From: a bacterium
GTDB lineage: Bacteria > Margulisbacteria > Marinamargulisbacteria > JABIPA01
Reading direction: 5' to 3'
Assembly (NCBI GenBank): GCA_018699495.1
Contig: JABIQV010000005.1
Coordinates: forward strand, 1-35,831
Length of the DNA: 35,831 nucleotides
Each line of letters starts with the position of its first letter. The stretch's first letter is position 1. The notes under the pieces were generated by a model. That model made no database searches, was not told the origin of the DNA, and worked only from the letters and a program-made list of their open reading frames with translations. Of the stretch, positions 18,951 through 35,434 are shown piece after piece. Made by a program: the position numbers and the translations under genes.

Positions 18951-19979
18951 TTAAACTAATATTTCATCTTTAATTGGGTGGGATGTTTGAACTTTTTCTA
19001 ATGAAAGGTAAGGAATTATTTTACTTTGGATGCTTTCTCTTTCAATTTTTTCGATTATCATTGATTTTTTTCGTATTCCGTATGTGAACAGTATTTGAGG
19101 TGTGTTTGTTAATGAAAATTTTGTTTGTATGTCGGTGGATGAGTCTTTGTTAAGTAATGGAGCACCATAAAGGCAGGTAGCTATGTTTTGATCCGACAAA
19201 TGAAGTAATATACTTTGTAGGTCTTGCCCCGTTTGAACTAAGCTTTTTATATCTGATTTAGAAGATAATATGATAATACCGTCAGCCGTTAAAATGTCCG
19301 GGTATTTTGTTTTTGCAATTAGTTTTCCTATTGATTGATTCGACGAAAGGATAGGAATCAAATTTGATGTAAAAACGGGGATATTTAGTGCTGAAATTGG
19401 AACTCCTTTTTTGGCTGATGAAAGAATAGATGGGAACATTTTATTTAATGTTTTTTTGAACAGTTTTTCATTAGAACTTGTATTCATTCCTTTTTTTGCG
19501 TGTTTTTCAATAAGTTTAAATGATGATTTTTCTTTTAAAATTTTAATTTCTGAGTCAATTTTTCTTCCAAAAATTATTTTTTCAGTACTTAATATGGGTT
19601 TCTCAATGACTTGTGGTAAATATTTATTTCTATAATTTTGTCTTTTTTTCATAAGTTGAATCAATTTGTTATAGCTGTGTTCATTTGTGACGTGTTGTGA
19701 ATCCAGATTTACCGTTATTTTTGCAATGTTTGGGTACTGATTTTGATACTCTATCGTTATGAATCGTTTGCAGCTTGTTAGCAGCAGTATGACGTTTTGT
19801 ATAAAGCACCCGATGCTTATTAATTGAAAAGAATTGCTTGGGTCAAGATCATTTAAATCTAATTTAGTGTCTGCACTTATTAAAATTGTATTGTCGTGAA
19901 AGGCTAATTTCCATGGTTGCGTATTGTAATAGGATGGCGATAAATTTGCGTATTCAAGCAGTTCGAATAAATTAAACAT
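18951..19979 (-). CDS. Acg/Rv2032-like nitroreductase-family protein
   Basis: LLEYANLSPSYYNTQPWKLAFHDNTILISAD resembles the N-terminus of Acg-type nitroreductases. Next to another nitroreductase-domain gene. Confidence 0.7.
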   Translation of the reverse strand: MFNLFELLEYANLSPSYYNTQPWKLAFHDNTILISADTKLDLNDLDPSNSFQLISIGCFIQNVILLLTSCKRFITIEYQNQYPNIAKITVNLDSQHVTNEHSYNKLIQLMKKRQNYRNKYLPQVIEKPILSTEKIIFGRKIDSEIKILKEKSSFKLIEKHAKKGMNTSSNEKLFKKTLNKMFPSILSSAKKGVPISALNIPVFTSNLIPILSSNQSIGKLIAKTKYPDILTADGIIILSSKSDIKSLVQTGQDLQSILLHLSDQNIATCLYGAPLLNKDSSTDIQTKFSLTNTPQILFTYGIRKKSMIIEKIERESIQSKIIPYLSLEKVQTSHPIKDEILV

Positions 19980-20003: not shown

Positions 20004-20678
20004 TTAACATATGATACATGGCAAGGTTGTGTCTTTAATTTTAGATGGGATATCTTTATCGTAATCAATATAATGTATTTCCATGGGAAATTTTTTGGAT
20101 ACGTATTTACTGTGACAAAAATAGTAAGGAAAGTGTTTTAAAAAATGTGTTTTTATTCCTGATGAATGAAAAAAGGCCTTTAAAACGGATCGTTTGCTAC
20201 AAATCAATACAATTTTTTTTGAATCTGTTTTCTTAAATTTTAAAAATTGACTATTTAAGGTCGATTTAACTAAGTTAAGTCCTATTTGTCGAGAATTAAT
20301 AAAGCTTTCGTTTACCACAAGTTTTGTTAACTCTCTGATTTCGAAATTAGAGGTGAGGTCGATTTTTTGGTTGATTTCTTCAAAACTTATATTTCCGTAT
20401 TCTAAGGCATAGCTATTTTCTAGGTAAGCGCCAATAGACCCAATAACTTGTCCATTTGATTTTGCCATCAAAAGGTTGTCTGGGAACCGTTCGATGGGAT
20501 CCTTTGAAATCGGAAGTTGGTTTATTAACGTCACTCCATATTTTTTATAATAAATGGAAGCCATTAACTCTTGGCAGCGTTTTCTTTCTGAGTCATTTTT
20601 AACAATTTCTAGCGTATGGCTAGACGCAAACTTGGTATTTGTATCGTTTAATTTTTTAATTAATGTTTTGCTAATCAT
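20004..20678 (-). CDS. GNAT-fold N-acyl amino acid synthase-like protein (FeeM family-like)
   Basis: ELMASIYYKKYGVTLINQL, FEIRELTKLVVNESFINSRQIGLNLVKSTLNSQFLKF. ATG at 20678 overlaps the upstream TGA (ATGA). Confidence 0.6.
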   Translation of the reverse strand: MISKTLIKKLNDTNTKFASSHTLEIVKNDSERKRCQELMASIYYKKYGVTLINQLPISKDPIERFPDNLLMAKSNGQVIGSIGAYLENSYALEYGNISFEEINQKIDLTSNFEIRELTKLVVNESFINSRQIGLNLVKSTLNSQFLKFKKTDSKKIVLICSKRSVLKAFFHSSGIKTHFLKHFPYYFCHSKYVSKKFPMEIHYIDYDKDIPSKIKDTTLPCIIC

Positions 20679-22939
20679 AAAAACTGACAAACTTTCTCAA
20701 CAGGTCGTTTTAGGGATGCAATGGGTTCTGTCTCTGAATAAAATAGTCGAAACAATAGAATGAGTCCGTTATCGGGCGAATGTGGAATAATAGATGTGAA
20801 TTTTTTTTGTAGTAAAATTAACTCTTTTTTAAGCCAGTTAGGTAGTGTTTCCGGTTTCAGGTAAAGGCGAGTTAATAAATAGCAGATACTTGTCATCGGC
20901 TGTAAACTAAGACCTTCTTTACTTGCCGTTAACCATAGTTTTTCAAGAGCTTGCCCACCATGAAAGAAACTTAACGGGTTATTTTTGTCAGTTAGTATAC
21001 ATCCGATGGCCGGGCTTTTTTCGATTTGTTTTAAGGAAAAGTTTTCAATTCCTTTTCCACCGTTAACTTTTTTTAGAAGTTCGACGACGGACCAGTTTTT
21101 CGATAATTTTAACCCGGCCAAATCTAAGTTTGATAAATAGAGAGTCTCGATATCTATGCCATCTCTCGATTTACCAACTTCTTCTTCATTCCATCTAATT
21201 TCGTTGTACATTTCTTCGTGACATTGTTTGTGAAAGAATCTGCATTTTTCTGATTTAGCAAAAATAGTTGAAAGGTCAGAAATATCTGACGATGAGGTTT
21301 TAAATATTATATTTGTACCAGGTAGATGGTCACAGGCGGATGCAAGCTTTGAAAATGTAGCTGTTTGTATTTTCTGATTTAACGCTTTTTTACGATTTGT
21401 TTTTCGTTTAAATATTTCTTCAAATAAATCTGGCATTTCAGGCGTTAAGTCTAATTTTTTCGTTTGCTTGAAAATGGCGACACATGGAAATGCATCTGGA
21501 TAAATTGTTTCAAAGGTCATTTCATTTTTTCTTGCAGCTATTAGAAAGTTTTCGGAGGCGGCACCAAGTGCGAGATGAGAGGCTAAGTAATTAACGTCTA
21601 AAAATATACCCGCTCTAGATTTATCAATAAAAAGAAAAACTAAGTTATCGTGAATGATCCATTTCCATGGCTGAATATTCCCTCCAGAGGGGGCTTGGTT
21701 TGCACAATTAATACAGTCTGATATTTTTGATTTTATAATTGGAACGGTTGTTGATATTTTTTGCTCAATTATTATATTTTTCGCATATTCGAGTTCAGGT
21801 TTATCAGTTAGGTTATCTTCAGATGGATTAGACTTGATTGGTGGGGTAAATGATTTTTCTGTTAAACGGGGCTGGTTTTTGTCTAATTCTTTATCTATAT
21901 CAAAATAATAACGCCCAGATGGAGTAGGTGTAGATAATAGAAGTCTTCTTGATACGTGGGTAGTAATTCCCGCTCCATTAGAAACCGAAGATGCAAGTTG
22001 AGGCCAAGAATTTATGCTTTGTTCAATTTCTAGCATACTTGATTTTAATCGGTCAGAAGCGTCATTGATTCCAAGAATATCTAAAACTAAGGGGATTTTT
22101 TCTTCATTGCTTAGGTTTTTTAAATTGGTTTTAGTTTCTAAGTTAGTAAGCCCGTGAAATAAGGGTCGGTGGGGCTCTAAGTCGAATCGTTCGATATCTA
22201 AAAGTTCTCTGTCTGTTGTATGCATAATTACTGGAATATTTAAGGCTTTACATTTTTTTCTAATTTCTATTTTTGTTTCAAAACAGTCACATTCTTCTAT
22301 GAGTAGGTCTAGTTGAGATGTTTTTGTAAGAAATTTGGAGTAGTTTTGGCTATCTACCCCTTTGTCGAAAATGGTTAGTTTTAAAAATGGGTCAATTTCA
22401 AGTATTTCTCGGGCCGTTAACACAGCTTTATTCATACCGATATTTTTTACGTTTGTTCTAATTCTATTTAAATTTGAGAGTTCAATTGAATCGAAGTCAG
22501 CGAGTCTGATTTCACCGCAAATTCGTTCTTGAGCGATGGTTAATGCGATTGCATGCCCTACGGAAAGTCCTATAATCCCTATTTTTTTAGCTTTTAACTC
22601 GAGTTGTTCTTCTTCTGAAATTTTGTACATATTTCTCGCGGTTCTCAATTTAACAAATTTATTTTCGTCTAGAAGATGTACGAGGTGATTGTTCCACGGA
22701 TAAAACACCCAAACGCCAATATTATTTTTATTGGAGATGTCAAAATAGTTTTTTATGGAGTTTTGAATAATTTTATCGGATGTTTCGTTTGGAATGAGAA
22801 GTTTTGTGTATTCGACTAATTGACTATCAATTTCATCAAATATTTGAATGTTAGGGGCGGTTTTTAAAAGAGCGAGTTTATTAGCGTTTGTTGGATTAAG
22901 AGGGTCCAATATGTCTACTTGAAATGTGTGTCTTTCCAT
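20675..22939 (-). CDS. ThiF/E1-like adenylyltransferase fused to a nitroreductase domain (Rv1355c/MoeY-like)
   Basis: E1-like half: KKIGIIGLSVGHAIALTIAQERICGEIRLADFDSIELSNLNRIRTNVKNIGMNKAVLTAREILEIDPF. Nitroreductase half: CANQAPSGGNIQPWKWIIHDNLVFLFID. Confidence 0.85.
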   Translation of the reverse strand: MERHTFQVDILDPLNPTNANKLALLKTAPNIQIFDEIDSQLVEYTKLLIPNETSDKIIQNSIKNYFDISNKNNIGVWVFYPWNNHLVHLLDENKFVKLRTARNMYKISEEEQLELKAKKIGIIGLSVGHAIALTIAQERICGEIRLADFDSIELSNLNRIRTNVKNIGMNKAVLTAREILEIDPFLKLTIFDKGVDSQNYSKFLTKTSQLDLLIEECDCFETKIEIRKKCKALNIPVIMHTTDRELLDIERFDLEPHRPLFHGLTNLETKTNLKNLSNEEKIPLVLDILGINDASDRLKSSMLEIEQSINSWPQLASSVSNGAGITTHVSRRLLLSTPTPSGRYYFDIDKELDKNQPRLTEKSFTPPIKSNPSEDNLTDKPELEYAKNIIIEQKISTTVPIIKSKISDCINCANQAPSGGNIQPWKWIIHDNLVFLFIDKSRAGIFLDVNYLASHLALGAASENFLIAARKNEMTFETIYPDAFPCVAIFKQTKKLDLTPEMPDLFEEIFKRKTNRKKALNQKIQTATFSKLASACDHLPGTNIIFKTSSSDISDLSTIFAKSEKCRFFHKQCHEEMYNEIRWNEEEVGKSRDGIDIETLYLSNLDLAGLKLSKNWSVVELLKKVNGGKGIENFSLKQIEKSPAIGCILTDKNNPLSFFHGGQALEKLWLTASKEGLSLQPMTSICYLLTRLYLKPETLPNWLKKELILLQKKFTSIIPHSPDNGLILLFRLFYSETEPIASLKRPVEKVCQFL

Positions 22940-23220: not shown

Positions 23221-24618
23221 ATGAATACAATTACAAATCTTTTGATGCTGTATGGTGGTATTTTATTAATAAATACTATTATTTCAATTTTCCTTTGGAT
23301 AAATGATAAATCTAAAACAAGTTTTTATAAAATTATGTTTTATATTTGGTTTTCAAGCGTTGTCGCGTTTGTTTTTCAAGGAATATTACAGCAAAATGAT
23401 CTTGCGATTGTTTCGGGGTTTTCATTTACCCTATTTACTGTTTTTTCGTTAGTTTTTTTATTTCAGGATATTTATTCCTTTCGAGTGCCTATCAAGAGGT
23501 TAGTCGGCTTTTTCGTATTGTCTTATGGAACAACGCTTTTCCTTTTGATAAATGGCGTTGAATTTGTTTATGCTGTTCTTCCCTTATCATTTAGTATAGC
23601 TTTACCGTTACTTGTTACGGCTTACCATGGTTTTTTTAAACAGTGGAATGACCTTACTTTTCCCGGAAAAGGGTATATATGGGTAGCTGTAATGTTCTCT
23701 ATTCATATTTTAGATTTTCCGTTTCTTCGAAAGGTTGAATCGGCAGCTACTCTTGGTTTTTTAATTGCTATTCTCATTGTGTTTGGTTTTTCTATTTTTG
23801 CGCCTGCAATGGTAATAGAAATTCTTGCAAAACGACAAACTCGGATTGTCGCGGAAATTGATGTTGCGAAGAAAATTCAGACCGAAATTTTGCCTAAAGA
23901 TCCGCATGTTCCAGGAATGGATCTTACTTGTTTTATGAGACCTGCGGATGAAGTGGGCGGCGATTATTACGATATATATTCTGTAGATGACAAGACGTGG
24001 TTGTTTCTAGGCGATGTTACCGGGCATGGACTTGGGTCTGGACTTGTTATGTTTATGGCTCAAAGTATTATTACGTCTATTTTAGAAACTAACCCGGCGA
24101 TAACACCTATGGAATTGAATCTTTTGTTCAATCAAATATTGTTTAACAATTTGGAGCGACTGAATGAAAAACGCCCCATGGCATTAATATCGTTGTGTTT
24201 CGGAAAGGAGAATTCAGTATCTCTTAGTGGTAATCATGATCTCATTTTTGTATATCGCTATAAAACTAAATTGATAGAAAAATTAGCTCTTTATCAGTTC
24301 CCGATGGGGTTGGGGTTTACAGATATATTTGATAAATCTGACATTAAAAATGAATTATTAAGTTTGGAAGATGGCGATATTTTATTTTTGGGTACGGATG
24401 GTATTACAGAAGCGGCGAAGCATGGGGATGTTAATTTGGGAATGTTTGGTGAAGATCTTTTAGAAAAATGGTTAAAAGAAAACTGCGAAAAAACTGTTGA
24501 TGAAATGAAAAAATCATTGTTAGAAACATTGGATGATTATACCTCTGGAAAATATTTTGATGATATTACGTTTGTAATTGCACGTTTAGATTCTAAAAAA
24601 TTGGGTAAAATTATTTAA
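23221..24618 (+). CDS. Membrane-anchored SpoIIE-type PP2C serine phosphatase
   Basis: Multi-TM N-terminus; PADEVGGDYYDIYSVDDKTWLFLGDVTGHGLGSGLVMFM, LFLGTDGITEA, FDDITFVIARL catalytic motifs intact. Confidence 0.92.
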   Translation: MNTITNLLMLYGGILLINTIISIFLWINDKSKTSFYKIMFYIWFSSVVAFVFQGILQQNDLAIVSGFSFTLFTVFSLVFLFQDIYSFRVPIKRLVGFFVLSYGTTLFLLINGVEFVYAVLPLSFSIALPLLVTAYHGFFKQWNDLTFPGKGYIWVAVMFSIHILDFPFLRKVESAATLGFLIAILIVFGFSIFAPAMVIEILAKRQTRIVAEIDVAKKIQTEILPKDPHVPGMDLTCFMRPADEVGGDYYDIYSVDDKTWLFLGDVTGHGLGSGLVMFMAQSIITSILETNPAITPMELNLLFNQILFNNLERLNEKRPMALISLCFGKENSVSLSGNHDLIFVYRYKTKLIEKLALYQFPMGLGFTDIFDKSDIKNELLSLEDGDILFLGTDGITEAAKHGDVNLGMFGEDLLEKWLKENCEKTVDEMKKSLLETLDDYTSGKYFDDITFVIARLDSKKLGKII

Positions 24619-24620
24619 AG

Positions 24621-25229
24621 ATGGATACCAGTGTATTTAAAATTAATCAGTTAAGCTCTGAACATTTATTTTCGGATTCTCAACAATCTTGGTTTTTTGG
24701 CAATTATATTACATTAGAAGAAGATGAAATAATATTTTCTGAATGTCATTTAAAATTTTTGCCACTTCATTTGATATCCAAATGGTCTAGATGTGGGTTG
24801 ACTGCCGAATATCTATCAAAATATATAGCATTGAATTCAGAAAAAGGTAGTGAGGTCGAAAATGTTGCGGCTACAGTAATTAATGAATTGATAGAAAATG
24901 CAGTCAAGTTTTCATTTGATAAGTCGGAATCAATATTAGTCTCCATGTATCAAACGGGGACTGCTGTGTTAGTCAGAATAGAGAATGTAGCTGACTACGA
25001 CTCAGTCAAAAAATTTGTAAAATTTTTGGAGGAAATTGACTTAACGGATATAGAAGAAACCATAGTTAAGCGAATCGAAAAGAGTGCAACGTCGGATGGA
25101 GATGTATCTGGGTTGGGGATTCTCTCTATTATTAATGATAGTGATGTTACGTTTGGAATAAAAATTTGTTCTGATTCTGTTGAAGATAAAACGTTTTCAG
25201 TGGATATAAAAATACTATTTAAAATTTAG
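24621..25229 (+). CDS. HATPase-like anti-sigma/kinase regulator (slr1658/SiaB-like)
   Basis: SKWSRCGLTAEYLSKYIALN, VINELIENAVKFSFD (N-box-like), SGLGILSIINDSDVTFGIKI. Homologous to the 25610-26176 product. Confidence 0.75.
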   Translation: MDTSVFKINQLSSEHLFSDSQQSWFFGNYITLEEDEIIFSECHLKFLPLHLISKWSRCGLTAEYLSKYIALNSEKGSEVENVAATVINELIENAVKFSFDKSESILVSMYQTGTAVLVRIENVADYDSVKKFVKFLEEIDLTDIEETIVKRIEKSATSDGDVSGLGILSIINDSDVTFGIKICSDSVEDKTFSVDIKILFKI

Positions 25230-25247
25230 GGAAGATGGAGAGTTTTG

Positions 25248-25586
25248 ATGTTTAATAAAGATTATCAGATAGTGGATGCAAGTAATGGTGTTATTTGTTT
25301 AACCGGTGTTTTAAGGTTGCCCTCACCAGGTGCTTATGATGCTCCTTTTGCACCGATATATAAAAAAATTCAAAGCGAGGAGTTTTCCACTTTTGTTTTA
25401 GATGTAACAGATCTCGTTTTTTTAAATAGCGCAGGATTAACAGCTTTGGCACAGTTGATAATCTATTGTAGAGAACACACTATTCCTTTAACTTTGAAAG
25501 GAAAGAAAGGTGTTCCTTGGCATGAAAAAAGCATATCAAGGTCATTGGCTCGTTTATGGAAAGAAATGATTGTGGAGCTTGTTTAA
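25248..25586 (+). CDS. STAS-domain regulator (slr1659-like, anti-sigma antagonist fold)
   Basis: FVLDVTDLVFLNSAGLTALAQLIIYC with conserved Ser; KGKKGVPWHEKSISRSLARLW. Confidence 0.8.
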   Translation: MFNKDYQIVDASNGVICLTGVLRLPSPGAYDAPFAPIYKKIQSEEFSTFVLDVTDLVFLNSAGLTALAQLIIYCREHTIPLTLKGKKGVPWHEKSISRSLARLWKEMIVELV

Positions 25587-25609
25587 TAGACAGGTACTGG
25601 ATGGTTTAA

Positions 25610-26176
25610 ATGGAAGAAGTAGTATACGGATTATATAATGAATTAGATAAAGTTGGGGTTGGAAATTCTGAGATAACAATGGATTTTGTGATTCCTCTTG
25701 AGCTAATGTCTGAATGGGAACGGTGTGGATTAATATCCGATTACTTAGCTCGATATGAAGCTTTTACATTTGATGATCAGGAATTGGCAACACAAGTATT
25801 GTCGACGGTCATAAACGAACTTTTAGAAAATGCGGTTAAATTTTCTACGGATAAAAATAAAATAGTTAATATCACGATTAAGCATTTTGGAAGTTTTCTG
25901 TCAGTTGAAGCTGTAAATAATACGGATGAGAAACATGCTTTAAATTTGGAATCGTATATTACTAAGCTAAAAGAATCATCTCCGGAGGATTTTTTTTTCG
26001 CACAGATAGAGAAAAATGCCTTGGTTCAGAGTCACAATTTATCTGGATTGGGGTTGCTAACGTTGGTTAATGATTACGAAGCAAAGTTAGGAATAAAAAT
26101 ACAAAAAAAGATTAAAACGGGATACGATATTTTTACGATGGTTCTTTTTTTTACTAATAATTTTTCAAATTCTTAA
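25610..26176 (+). CDS. HATPase-like anti-sigma/kinase regulator, second paralogue (slr1658/SiaB-like)
   Basis: SEWERCGLISDYLARYEAFT, VINELLENAVKFSTDKN, SGLGLLTLVNDYEAKLGIKI. Confidence 0.78.
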   Translation: MEEVVYGLYNELDKVGVGNSEITMDFVIPLELMSEWERCGLISDYLARYEAFTFDDQELATQVLSTVINELLENAVKFSTDKNKIVNITIKHFGSFLSVEAVNNTDEKHALNLESYITKLKESSPEDFFFAQIEKNALVQSHNLSGLGLLTLVNDYEAKLGIKIQKKIKTGYDIFTMVLFFTNNFSNS

Positions 26177-33052: not shown

Positions 33053-33331
33053 ATGTCAATCCAAAATTTAGGACAGCCTTTAGCTAACAACAGTAGTGGA
33101 CCTTTACATAATGCCGGTGAAGTTGGTTCTGTTTTATTAAACTTTAATAAGAAAAAGGTTAGAGTTGAAAAAGGCGGGGTTAAGGAAATGGCGAGAGGCT
33201 TGGCAAAGATTATGAAAGACCTTGGGGAAACTAATGATGAAGAAAGTTTTGCAGAAGATATTACTGAAGATCTCATGGAAGCGTTTAAGAAAGTAGAAGA
33301 ACGCCAAAAAAAGAAAAAGAAAAAAAGATAA
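33053..33331 (+). CDS. Small hypothetical protein (92 aa) with polylysine tail
   Basis: ORF ending ERQKKKKKKR; stop abuts the mfd stop. Confidence 0.55.
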   Translation: MSIQNLGQPLANNSSGPLHNAGEVGSVLLNFNKKKVRVEKGGVKEMARGLAKIMKDLGETNDEESFAEDITEDLMEAFKKVEERQKKKKKKR

Positions 33332-33342
33332 TTATCTTTTTT
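33321..33342. terminator. Perfect palindrome / bidirectional terminator at a stop-stop junction
   Basis: AAAAAAGATAA|TTATCTTTTTT: 11-bp arms, no spacer, A/T tracts on both flanks. Confidence 0.7.
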
Positions 33343-35434
33343 GGAGTTGTGACTGAATGCAGCGAAGAAATGATAATATTAGCTCCGGAAGCCTTCCAAA
33401 TCTATCCTCCATTTCATTAAATAAATCTTCAATTTCATCTCTGTATTTAAATGATAATAGCCGCTGGTAAATGGATAAACGCTCGTTTTCGCATGGAATA
33501 TAATTTGTAGGAAAATAGGTCATAATATCTGCAGCAAATCGAACGGGTCTTTTCTTCACTTCTTTTTTTGAATGTGTAATATTTTCAACAGCGGTTTCTA
33601 ATAGCTTGCAATAAAGTTCGAATCCAATTGAAGTCATATGACCATGTTGTTTATTTCCTAACAGTGTTCCTGAACCACGTATTTCTAAATCTTTAAGTGC
33701 TAATTGATAACCTGATCCTAGTGCAGCATAAGCTTGAATCGCAGTTAACCTATTTTTTCCTTTATCTGTAATTTTTTCTGGGTTGAAAAGTAAATATGCA
33801 AAGCTTTGTCTGTTTGATCTACCGACTCGTCCTCTAAGTTGATGTATTTGAGAAAGACCAAGGTACTCTGTTTTTTCTACGATGATTGTATTTGCGTTAG
33901 GTAAATCAATACCTGATTCTATGATTGTAGAACAAAGAAGTATGTTTGTTTTTCCGGTTTTAAAATCAGTAAATATTTGTTTTAGATCTTTTTCATTCAT
34001 TTGTCCGTGCGCCATTTGAATTGATAGGTCAGGGAACGTATGTTTTAGTTTTACAAGTTTTGCATCCATTGTTTGAACATTGTTATAAAGGTAAAAGATT
34101 TGCCCATTTCTTTCGAGTTCCTTTTTTACAGCTTGTTTAACAATGTCGTTTTTATAGGGAGCGACGTACGTGAGAACAGGCTTTCTGTTTGTCGGAGGTG
34201 TTTTGATGAGAGATAAGTCTCTTGCTCCTGATAGTGCCATATAAAGGGTTCTTGGTATTGGAGTGGCACTGATGGATAAAAAGTCTACAAGAGGATGTTT
34301 GTACTTTATTTTTTCTTTATGAGTCACACCAAATCGTTGTTCTTCGTCAATGACTAGTAGCCCTAAATTCGAAAACTCTATGTCTTTTTGTAATAGGCGG
34401 TGGGTTCCAATAATGATGTTAATTTTGTCCTCTTTTAGTTTTTCGATGGTAATTTTTTGATTTTTTTTAGGTTGCATCCTAGATAAAATTCCAATTTTAT
34501 ACGGGAAATTGATAAATCGTTTTTTGAATGTTTGATAATGTTGGTCGACGAGTAGAGTAGTGGGCGCAATAATGGCTACTTGTTTATTGTTTTCTACTGC
34601 TTTAAATGCCGCGCGTAACACGATTTCTGTTTTTCCATAACCAACATCGCCACAAATTAATCGTTCCATTGGTGCGGTTGATTCCATGTCTTTTTTGACT
34701 TGATCAATTGATAGTAGTTGATCTCTCGTTTCTTTGAATTCAAACTCTTGTTCGAAGTCGATTTGGTTTTCGGTGTCTTCTTGAAAAGGGAACCCTGGTT
34801 TAGATTGGCGGATTTTGAACGTCATTACCACTTCTTTTGCTAGTTGTATAATTTGTTTTTCGGCTTTTTGGATATTCTTTTTCCATGATCCATCATGTAA
34901 TTTGCCAATTTTTGGCGAATCAGCATTTGTATATTTATGGACGAGGTTCATTTGTTCAAAAGGGACGTAAACTTTGTCTTCACCTTGATATTGAATATGG
35001 ATGAAGTCTCCGTCCCGTCCGCAGACTGTTAGATGTTTTAGTCCTTTGTAAATTCCGATTCCAAATGTTTCGTGGACAACGAAATCTCCATGTTGTAATT
35101 GGTTAAACAGGTTTTCATTTTTTGGGACATCGATAAATTCGAAAAATGGCATTGATGTAGATGGTTCTTTATGTATTGTTGTTGATGTTAGAGACGTTAC
35201 AGACCGTTGAGTAGCAATAGAAAAAGAACAGACTCTGTCTAATTCATTTCCAAAATATTCGAGTCTCAAAGGAAGGCTATGGTCATAGCTAAAAATATCT
35301 ATGATTCCCCCACGTACGCAGAACTCTCCAGGTTTCATGAGCATTGTAACGCGTTCGTAGTTATTGTCGATTAGTGTTTTTTTTAGTGTTTCAAAAGATG
35401 GATATTCTTTTTTGCTTATGTCTATATTTATCAT
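33332..35434 (-). CDS. mfd: Transcription-repair coupling factor (Mfd), apparently a minimised form
   Basis: RID-like (GDFVVHETFGIGIYKGLKHL....DKVYVPFEQMNLVHKY), GDVGYGKTEIVLRAAF Walker A, DEEQRFGVTHKEKIK, SATPIPRTLYMALSGARDLSLI, IESGIDLPNANTIIVE, QLRGRVGRSNRQSFAYLLF, truncated TRCF C-terminal domain. In-frame TAG 7 codons upstream of the ATG. Confidence 0.9.
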   Translation of the reverse strand: MINIDISKKEYPSFETLKKTLIDNNYERVTMLMKPGEFCVRGGIIDIFSYDHSLPLRLEYFGNELDRVCSFSIATQRSVTSLTSTTIHKEPSTSMPFFEFIDVPKNENLFNQLQHGDFVVHETFGIGIYKGLKHLTVCGRDGDFIHIQYQGEDKVYVPFEQMNLVHKYTNADSPKIGKLHDGSWKKNIQKAEKQIIQLAKEVVMTFKIRQSKPGFPFQEDTENQIDFEQEFEFKETRDQLLSIDQVKKDMESTAPMERLICGDVGYGKTEIVLRAAFKAVENNKQVAIIAPTTLLVDQHYQTFKKRFINFPYKIGILSRMQPKKNQKITIEKLKEDKINIIIGTHRLLQKDIEFSNLGLLVIDEEQRFGVTHKEKIKYKHPLVDFLSISATPIPRTLYMALSGARDLSLIKTPPTNRKPVLTYVAPYKNDIVKQAVKKELERNGQIFYLYNNVQTMDAKLVKLKHTFPDLSIQMAHGQMNEKDLKQIFTDFKTGKTNILLCSTIIESGIDLPNANTIIVEKTEYLGLSQIHQLRGRVGRSNRQSFAYLLFNPEKITDKGKNRLTAIQAYAALGSGYQLALKDLEIRGSGTLLGNKQHGHMTSIGFELYCKLLETAVENITHSKKEVKKRPVRFAADIMTYFPTNYIPCENERLSIYQRLLSFKYRDEIEDLFNEMEDRFGRLPELILSFLRCIQSQLQKR

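Follow-up and report, generated by a model that had tools for sequence, protein, structure and literature searches.

The window, which is the whole stretch of 35,831 nucleotides analysed here, carries on its minus strand an open reading frame of 700 codons (33332-35434). The frame begins at an ATG at 35434, with an in-frame stop six codons 5' of this start. The encoded protein scores 867 bits against the Mfd equivalog TIGR00580 (NCBIfam cut-off 800). Two other identities were considered and rejected: the best RecG equivalog reaches only 379.9 bits (cut-off 711), and the UvrB model NF003673 only 57 bits against 743, the genuine UvrB of this genome being a separate gene (G000:C98). The features of the gene are as follows.

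33332..35434, minus strand: mfd, putative minimal transcription-repair coupling factor of 700 aa (ORF, Pfam, NCBIfam, alignment to E. coli Mfd)
35171..35419, minus strand: D2 / UvrB_inter, residues 6-88, putative UvrA-binding module (Pfam PF17757; UvrB profile positions 156-241)
35312..35314, minus strand: codon of R41, equivalent of E. coli R165 (UvrA contact and latch; alignment)
35264..35266, minus strand: codon of R57, equivalent of E. coli R181 (UvrA contact and latch), invariant (alignment)
35099..35170, minus strand: linker, residues 89-112, in the place of D1b and D3 (Pfam limits; pLDDT <50 at 92-108)
34931..35098, minus strand: RID, the RNA-polymerase-interacting domain, residues 113-168 (Pfam PF02559)
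33575..34909, minus strand: relay helix and RecG-like motor D5-D6 with TRG region, residues 176-620 (Pfam, alignment, model)
33401..33415, minus strand: E674..D677-R678, equivalents of E. coli E1045/D1048/R1049, which hold D2 (alignment; PMC3025350)
33335..33562, minus strand: D7 remnant, residues 625-700, proximal half of the TRCF domain (Pfam PF03461 positions 3-60 of 95; model)

All of the Pfam domains score above their cut-offs. UvrB_inter is found at residues 6-88 (63 bits, cut-off 22.9), CarD_TRCF_RID (PF02559) at residues 113-168, directly before the motor (60.5 bits, cut-off 23), DEAD and Helicase_C at residues 238-397 and 431-540, both above their cut-offs, and TRCF (PF03461) at residues 637-694 (50.7 bits, cut-off 25), where profile positions 3-60 of 95 are matched. 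The motor belongs to the RecG-like SF2 translocases, its ATPase motifs are intact and a TRG region is present; RecG itself has a related motor and TRG region, but neither RID nor D2.

The limits of D1a, D1b, D3 and D7 in E. coli Mfd are those in general use. In a phmmer comparison with that protein, residues 13-84 correspond without gaps to 137-208, and residues 112-691 to 476-1062. D2 and RID are separated by about 24 residues, as opposed to about 260 in E. coli Mfd, and the protein ends at approximately E. coli residue 1071, with about 76 residues of D7 kept and about 77 missing. The protein thus has D2, RID, the RecG-like motor, the relay helix, TRG and the start of D7 in common with full-length Mfds (1148 aa in E. 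coli, a 1235-residue chain in Mycobacterium smegmatis), but is without D1a, D1b, D3 and the remainder of D7. Because D1a and D1b are absent, leaving D2 at the N-terminus in place of a complete D1a-D2-D1b UvrB homology module, it is a variant rather than a standard member of the family. The D3 family (PF21132, MFD_D3) has no Pfam match in the protein and does match a full-length control (L037), but it also misses a 978-aa relative (L027); the absence of D3 therefore rests mainly on the missing residues and on a D1b-D3 profile (see below). The first-pass annotation, made from this DNA alone, had described a naturally minimised Mfd lacking most of D7 as well as D1a, D1b and D3. As regards D7 this was an overstatement, since about half of the domain remains, including the stretch that in E. 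coli touches D2.

Several other genes in the window may be mentioned. A 92-aa ORF with a lysine-rich end (33053-33331, plus strand) is convergent with mfd; it has no Pfam match and is conserved in a congener (L191:2900-3178). A 754-aa protein with ThiF/E1-like and nitroreductase-like domains is encoded at 20675-22939 (minus strand), adjoining a second nitroreductase-like gene at 18951-19979. Finally, a four-gene cluster headed by a SpoIIE-type phosphatase lies at 23221-26176 (plus strand). By eye it includes two anti-sigma-kinase-like proteins with a STAS-like protein between them, and it is possibly a partner-switching module; the one anti-sigma-kinase-like protein tested has no Pfam match.

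Integrity and distribution of the short gene

A gene of this kind could be what is left of a full-length mfd after decay, truncation or misassembly, and the state of the assembly gives some reason for asking: the genome is in 171 contigs and 85.5% complete, and mfd lies about 400 bases from a contig end. However, a genome of the same genus (G001) has a 700-aa mfd of identical architecture inside an 86-kb contig, where it adjoins a gene reading as a glycosyltransferase. The two proteins are 94.7% identical in amino acids, with a dN/dS of 0.035 overall, 0.044 in D2 and 0.021 in the D7 fragment, and purifying selection is acting on the short Mfd. Nothing Mfd-like is found in the 400 bases upstream of the gene, and no second mfd was detected in the assembly, where only RecG-like and other helicase matches were obtained. 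Given that the assembly is 85.5% complete and that an rpoB match is also missing from it, the argument from the lack of a second mfd rests on more complete relatives.

Those relatives point the same way. By our own count, the short architecture is present in about 36 of 75 genomes of the window's phylum, including near-complete ones (97-100%; for example G028 at 99%, and G031 and G036 at 100%), and every member of the class with a usable mfd gene has the short form. An Mfd query finds a match at E <= 1e-60 in 70 of the 75 genomes, a few of these matches being only RecG-like. A D1b-D3 profile matches 29 genomes, all in lineages with longer Mfds, and none of the short-Mfd genomes, so a stand-alone protein supplying D1b and D3 is rejected as well. 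Together with the congener's gene and the dN/dS values, these observations rule out an assembly error, a frameshift or a split gene, and a decayed copy, contradicted as it is by the relatives, is hardly credible. The first-pass annotation had named a frameshift or misassembly, a full-length mfd elsewhere in the genome and full-length Mfds in all close relatives as grounds on which its reading would fall; none of the three was found, and the related genomes in which it had proposed to look for the same architecture do contain it. Its description of an Mfd without D1a, D1b and D3 is borne out by Pfam, alignment, lineage-wide conservation and purifying selection.

In other families of the phylum, Mfd is mostly 978-1083 aa in length. 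These longer proteins resemble the 700-aa Mfd in having D2 and the complete set of latch residues (described below), and differ from it in that D1a is kept, the D1b/D3 stretch is present in shortened form and the D7 tail is longer. The nucleotide excision repair partners are widespread: UvrA is above its family cut-off in 63 of the 75 genomes and UvrB in 65, and the window's own genome has both (UvrA, C57, 1344.6 bits; UvrB, C98, 1022.8 bits).

Some individual sequences in the phylum are unusual. An 841-aa Mfd (G035; L034 / L175), which has part of D1a and a gap of 51 residues between D2 and RID, is sister to a 1003-aa form (G074) and is a possible stage of reduction. The frame of one short Mfd (L017, in G011) ends soon after the motor, at about residue 617, with D7-like sequence readable past an in-frame TGA, which may be a real stop ahead of D7 or a sequencing error. 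An apparent 1309-aa SecD-Mfd fusion (G184, L190) is probably an assembly artefact, as it has an unknown residue in the frame and its likeness to SecD is lost before Mfd begins; it was set aside.

The putative UvrA-binding face and D2:D7 latch

The role of D2 and D7 is best understood in E. coli, where R165, R181 and F185 of D2 form the UvrA surface, and R165 and R181 are buried against D7 (PMC3025350). E1045, D1048 and R1049 of D7 hold D2 in place, and ATPase activity goes up when either face is mutated; coupled repair cannot do without the UvrA surface of D2 but can do without D7 (PMC3025350). The equivalents in the 700-aa Mfd are R41, R57 and F61 on the UvrA face and E674, D677 and R678 in the latch, so that both sets of residues are shared with full-length Mfds. 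Among the 33 short Mfds of the phylum that were aligned, the R41 position is always R or K and R57 is always R, and the E674 position is always E or D while D677 and R678 are invariant. The F185 position, however, is not conserved in many of the relatives. In the RID, L135 is the counterpart of E. coli L499, whose role we take to be that generally attributed to it in Mfd; the position varies among relatives and is only partly conserved. In the congener, the beta1 segment of RpoB has the sequence EVVEQEV.

An AlphaFold2 model of the protein has a mean pLDDT of 82.5 and a pTM of 0.67. Linker residues 92-108 fall below a pLDDT of 50, a long helix (H183-211) stands at the place of the relay helix, and the D7 remnant comes out as three helices with a pLDDT of about 83. 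In a Foldseek comparison the model is nearest to Mfd in its apo, latched state (6ac8_A and 2eyq_A, TMq 0.73-0.76), with the loaded L2 state farther away (TMq 0.54), a likeness to apo Mfd that may stem from the training of AlphaFold on those structures.

Taken as a whole, these data suggest that the product of mfd is probably a minimal but functional transcription-repair coupling factor, with D2 as its means of recruiting UvrA. This reading is based on the domain order (D2, linker, RID, motor, half of D7), the conserved contact residues, the purifying selection and lineage-wide conservation, the presence of UvrA and UvrB in the same genome where a separate D1b/D3 gene is absent, the proximity of the model to structures of Mfd in the apo, latched state, and the E. 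coli evidence that the UvrA surface of D2 is essential and D7 dispensable (PMC3025350). Against it are the lack of conservation of F185 in many relatives, the partial conservation of L499 and the pTM of 0.67. The retention of the UvrA-binding face, RID and motor, which had been proposed from the DNA alone, agrees with both Pfam and the aligned contact residues.

In such a factor, the RID would take hold of a stalled RNA polymerase at its beta1 protrusion. The RecG-like motor would walk on the upstream DNA, with the relay helix unwinding round the DNA and the polymerase being pushed off. Loading and displacement would presumably proceed as in E. coli, with D2 serving as a tethered UvrA hook: the flexible linker of about 24 residues would hang D2 directly from the polymerase-anchored RID, so that UvrA would be docked near the lesion. 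In the resting state, R41 and R57 of D2 would pack against the D7 cluster of E674, D677 and R678. An autoinhibitory latch would thus be retained in the absence of the D1-D3 module, a bulky unit that E. coli Mfd must shift during loading; there, the first large step of loading cannot proceed until the module swings away or detaches (PMC7864632). Processivity is explained by a wrapping of the DNA, for which the relay helix connecting RID and motor is responsible (PMC7864632, PMC12424862). The function of D3 has been described as unknown, and the D1a-D2-D1b scaffold of E. coli moves as a rigid body (PMC7385628), which is why a D2 held by nothing but a linker may not behave like its E. coli counterpart.

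It had been proposed instead that an enzyme stripped of its scaffold and of the D7 clamp could be constitutively open, with D2 always unmasked and the motor deregulated. Half of D7 is indeed absent, and engineered E. coli proteins provide a precedent: when Mfd is deprived of D7, or of the UvrB homology module in its entirety, its ATPase and translocase activities are deregulated, and the form without D7 still supports coupled repair (PMC3025350). However, loss of the clamp does not follow, as all 33 aligned short Mfds of the phylum retain the latch residues, and the D7 remnant, itself under strong purifying selection, is predicted to be ordered. For the window's protein a permanently open state is accordingly unlikely, and the D2:D7 latch may persist. 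The retention of the D1048 and R1049 equivalents could reflect folding rather than a latch, since both lie in a stretch that is conserved in all Mfds. Coupling by the short Mfd is plausible with or without the latch, because the E. coli mutants require the D2 surface and not D7.

The E. coli delta-D7 protein is similar to the natural short Mfd in being a domain-deleted form that keeps D2 and supports coupled repair. Nevertheless, both it and delta-BHM are laboratory truncations (PMC3025350), unlike the natural protein, and delta-BHM loses D2 too, whereas the 700-aa Mfd has lost D1a, D1b and D3 around a D2 that is kept. An engineered construct with exactly this domain arrangement was not found in the literature searched.

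Omnitrophota and the history of reduction

A more extensive reduction is found in the Omnitrophota. A scan of named genomes returned two Omnitrophota Mfds, with frames of 633 and 636 residues, among the matches listed, and a sample of 144 Omnitrophota genomes gave 133 Mfd matches at E <= 1e-100. By our own count, 125 of the 133 are continuous from D2 through the whole of the motor (about 620-680 aa); the remaining eight start later, several of them at contig ends. These proteins, including the 631-aa Mfd of Velamenicoccus archaeovorus (NZ_CP019384), share the D2-RID-motor arrangement and have a linker of 20-30 residues. They differ from the 700-aa Mfd in that D7 is wholly absent and in forming a clade of their own. 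The two named Mfds have Pfam matches to UvrB_inter, RID, DEAD and Helicase_C and none to TRCF, and the D7 cluster is found in none of 30 aligned Omnitrophota Mfds. In the one genome searched on its own, a single Mfd occurs in addition to RecG. The two named genes (L107:4962-6854, in NZ_CP019384, and L105:3128-5035) lie between secD/secF-like genes and a surA-like chaperone gene, followed by pdxA and rsmA.

Despite the missing D7, R57 is present in 30 of the 30 aligned Omnitrophota Mfds and R41 in 27, and UvrA is matched at E <= 1e-100 in 137 of the 144 genomes. As the arginines are kept where there is no D7 to contact, their retention points to UvrA binding as the reason, and D2 appears to be kept for something other than the latch. 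This bears on another alternative, in which the short Mfd is a polymerase-displacing motor uncoupled from repair, with D2 an intramolecular regulator or structural leftover that does not recruit UvrA. The poor conservation of F185, an exposed residue of the UvrA surface that has been mutated in E. coli, would be in keeping with such a motor, but the Omnitrophota arginines, the presence of UvrA and UvrB throughout and the purifying selection on D2 make it quite improbable. The D7-less proteins do show that an unlatched D2 is tolerable for a lineage, and they fit an open architecture better than the window's Mfd does.

Trees were built on the RID-motor region, with the columns of the trait itself excluded. 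The 33 short Mfds of the window's phylum form one clade (support 99 in a quick tree and 96/97 in a careful tree from which three long branches were left out and in which the Omnitrophota were fewer), and the Omnitrophota short Mfds form a separate one (98 and 100/98, respectively), with longer Mfds between the two. Forcing all short Mfds together was not rejected in a first test (p 0.157) and was marginally rejected with the careful tree (p 0.0425). Two independent reductions, one in each lineage, are therefore favoured over a single origin, but are not proven. The existence of intermediate-length Mfds supports loss rather than an ancestral short form. No account of a naturally shortened Mfd, in Margulisbacteria, in Omnitrophota or through truncation or domain loss in general, was found in the open-licence literature, a result that speaks only weakly for novelty.

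Work on Mfd has dealt with a machine of about 1150 residues, in which the N-terminal scaffold, the C-terminal clamp and the large rearrangements are thought to be regulatory, and lineages without D1a, D1b and D3 reveal which of its parts are essential. The short Mfds offer compact natural material for structural and single-molecule studies of UvrA recruitment, the purpose of autoinhibition and the need for a scaffold in processivity, and the D7-less Omnitrophota are a natural control in which UvrA binding and the latch can be told apart as causes of arginine conservation. As a tentative broader proposal, two lineages may have independently stripped Mfd to D2, linker, RID and motor, the window's phylum keeping the D2:D7 latch on half of D7 and the sampled Omnitrophota coupling with a permanently exposed UvrA dock and without classical autoinhibition. 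If this is true, the D1-D3 scaffold, and in the Omnitrophota even the latch, would be dispensable for transcription-repair coupling in nature.
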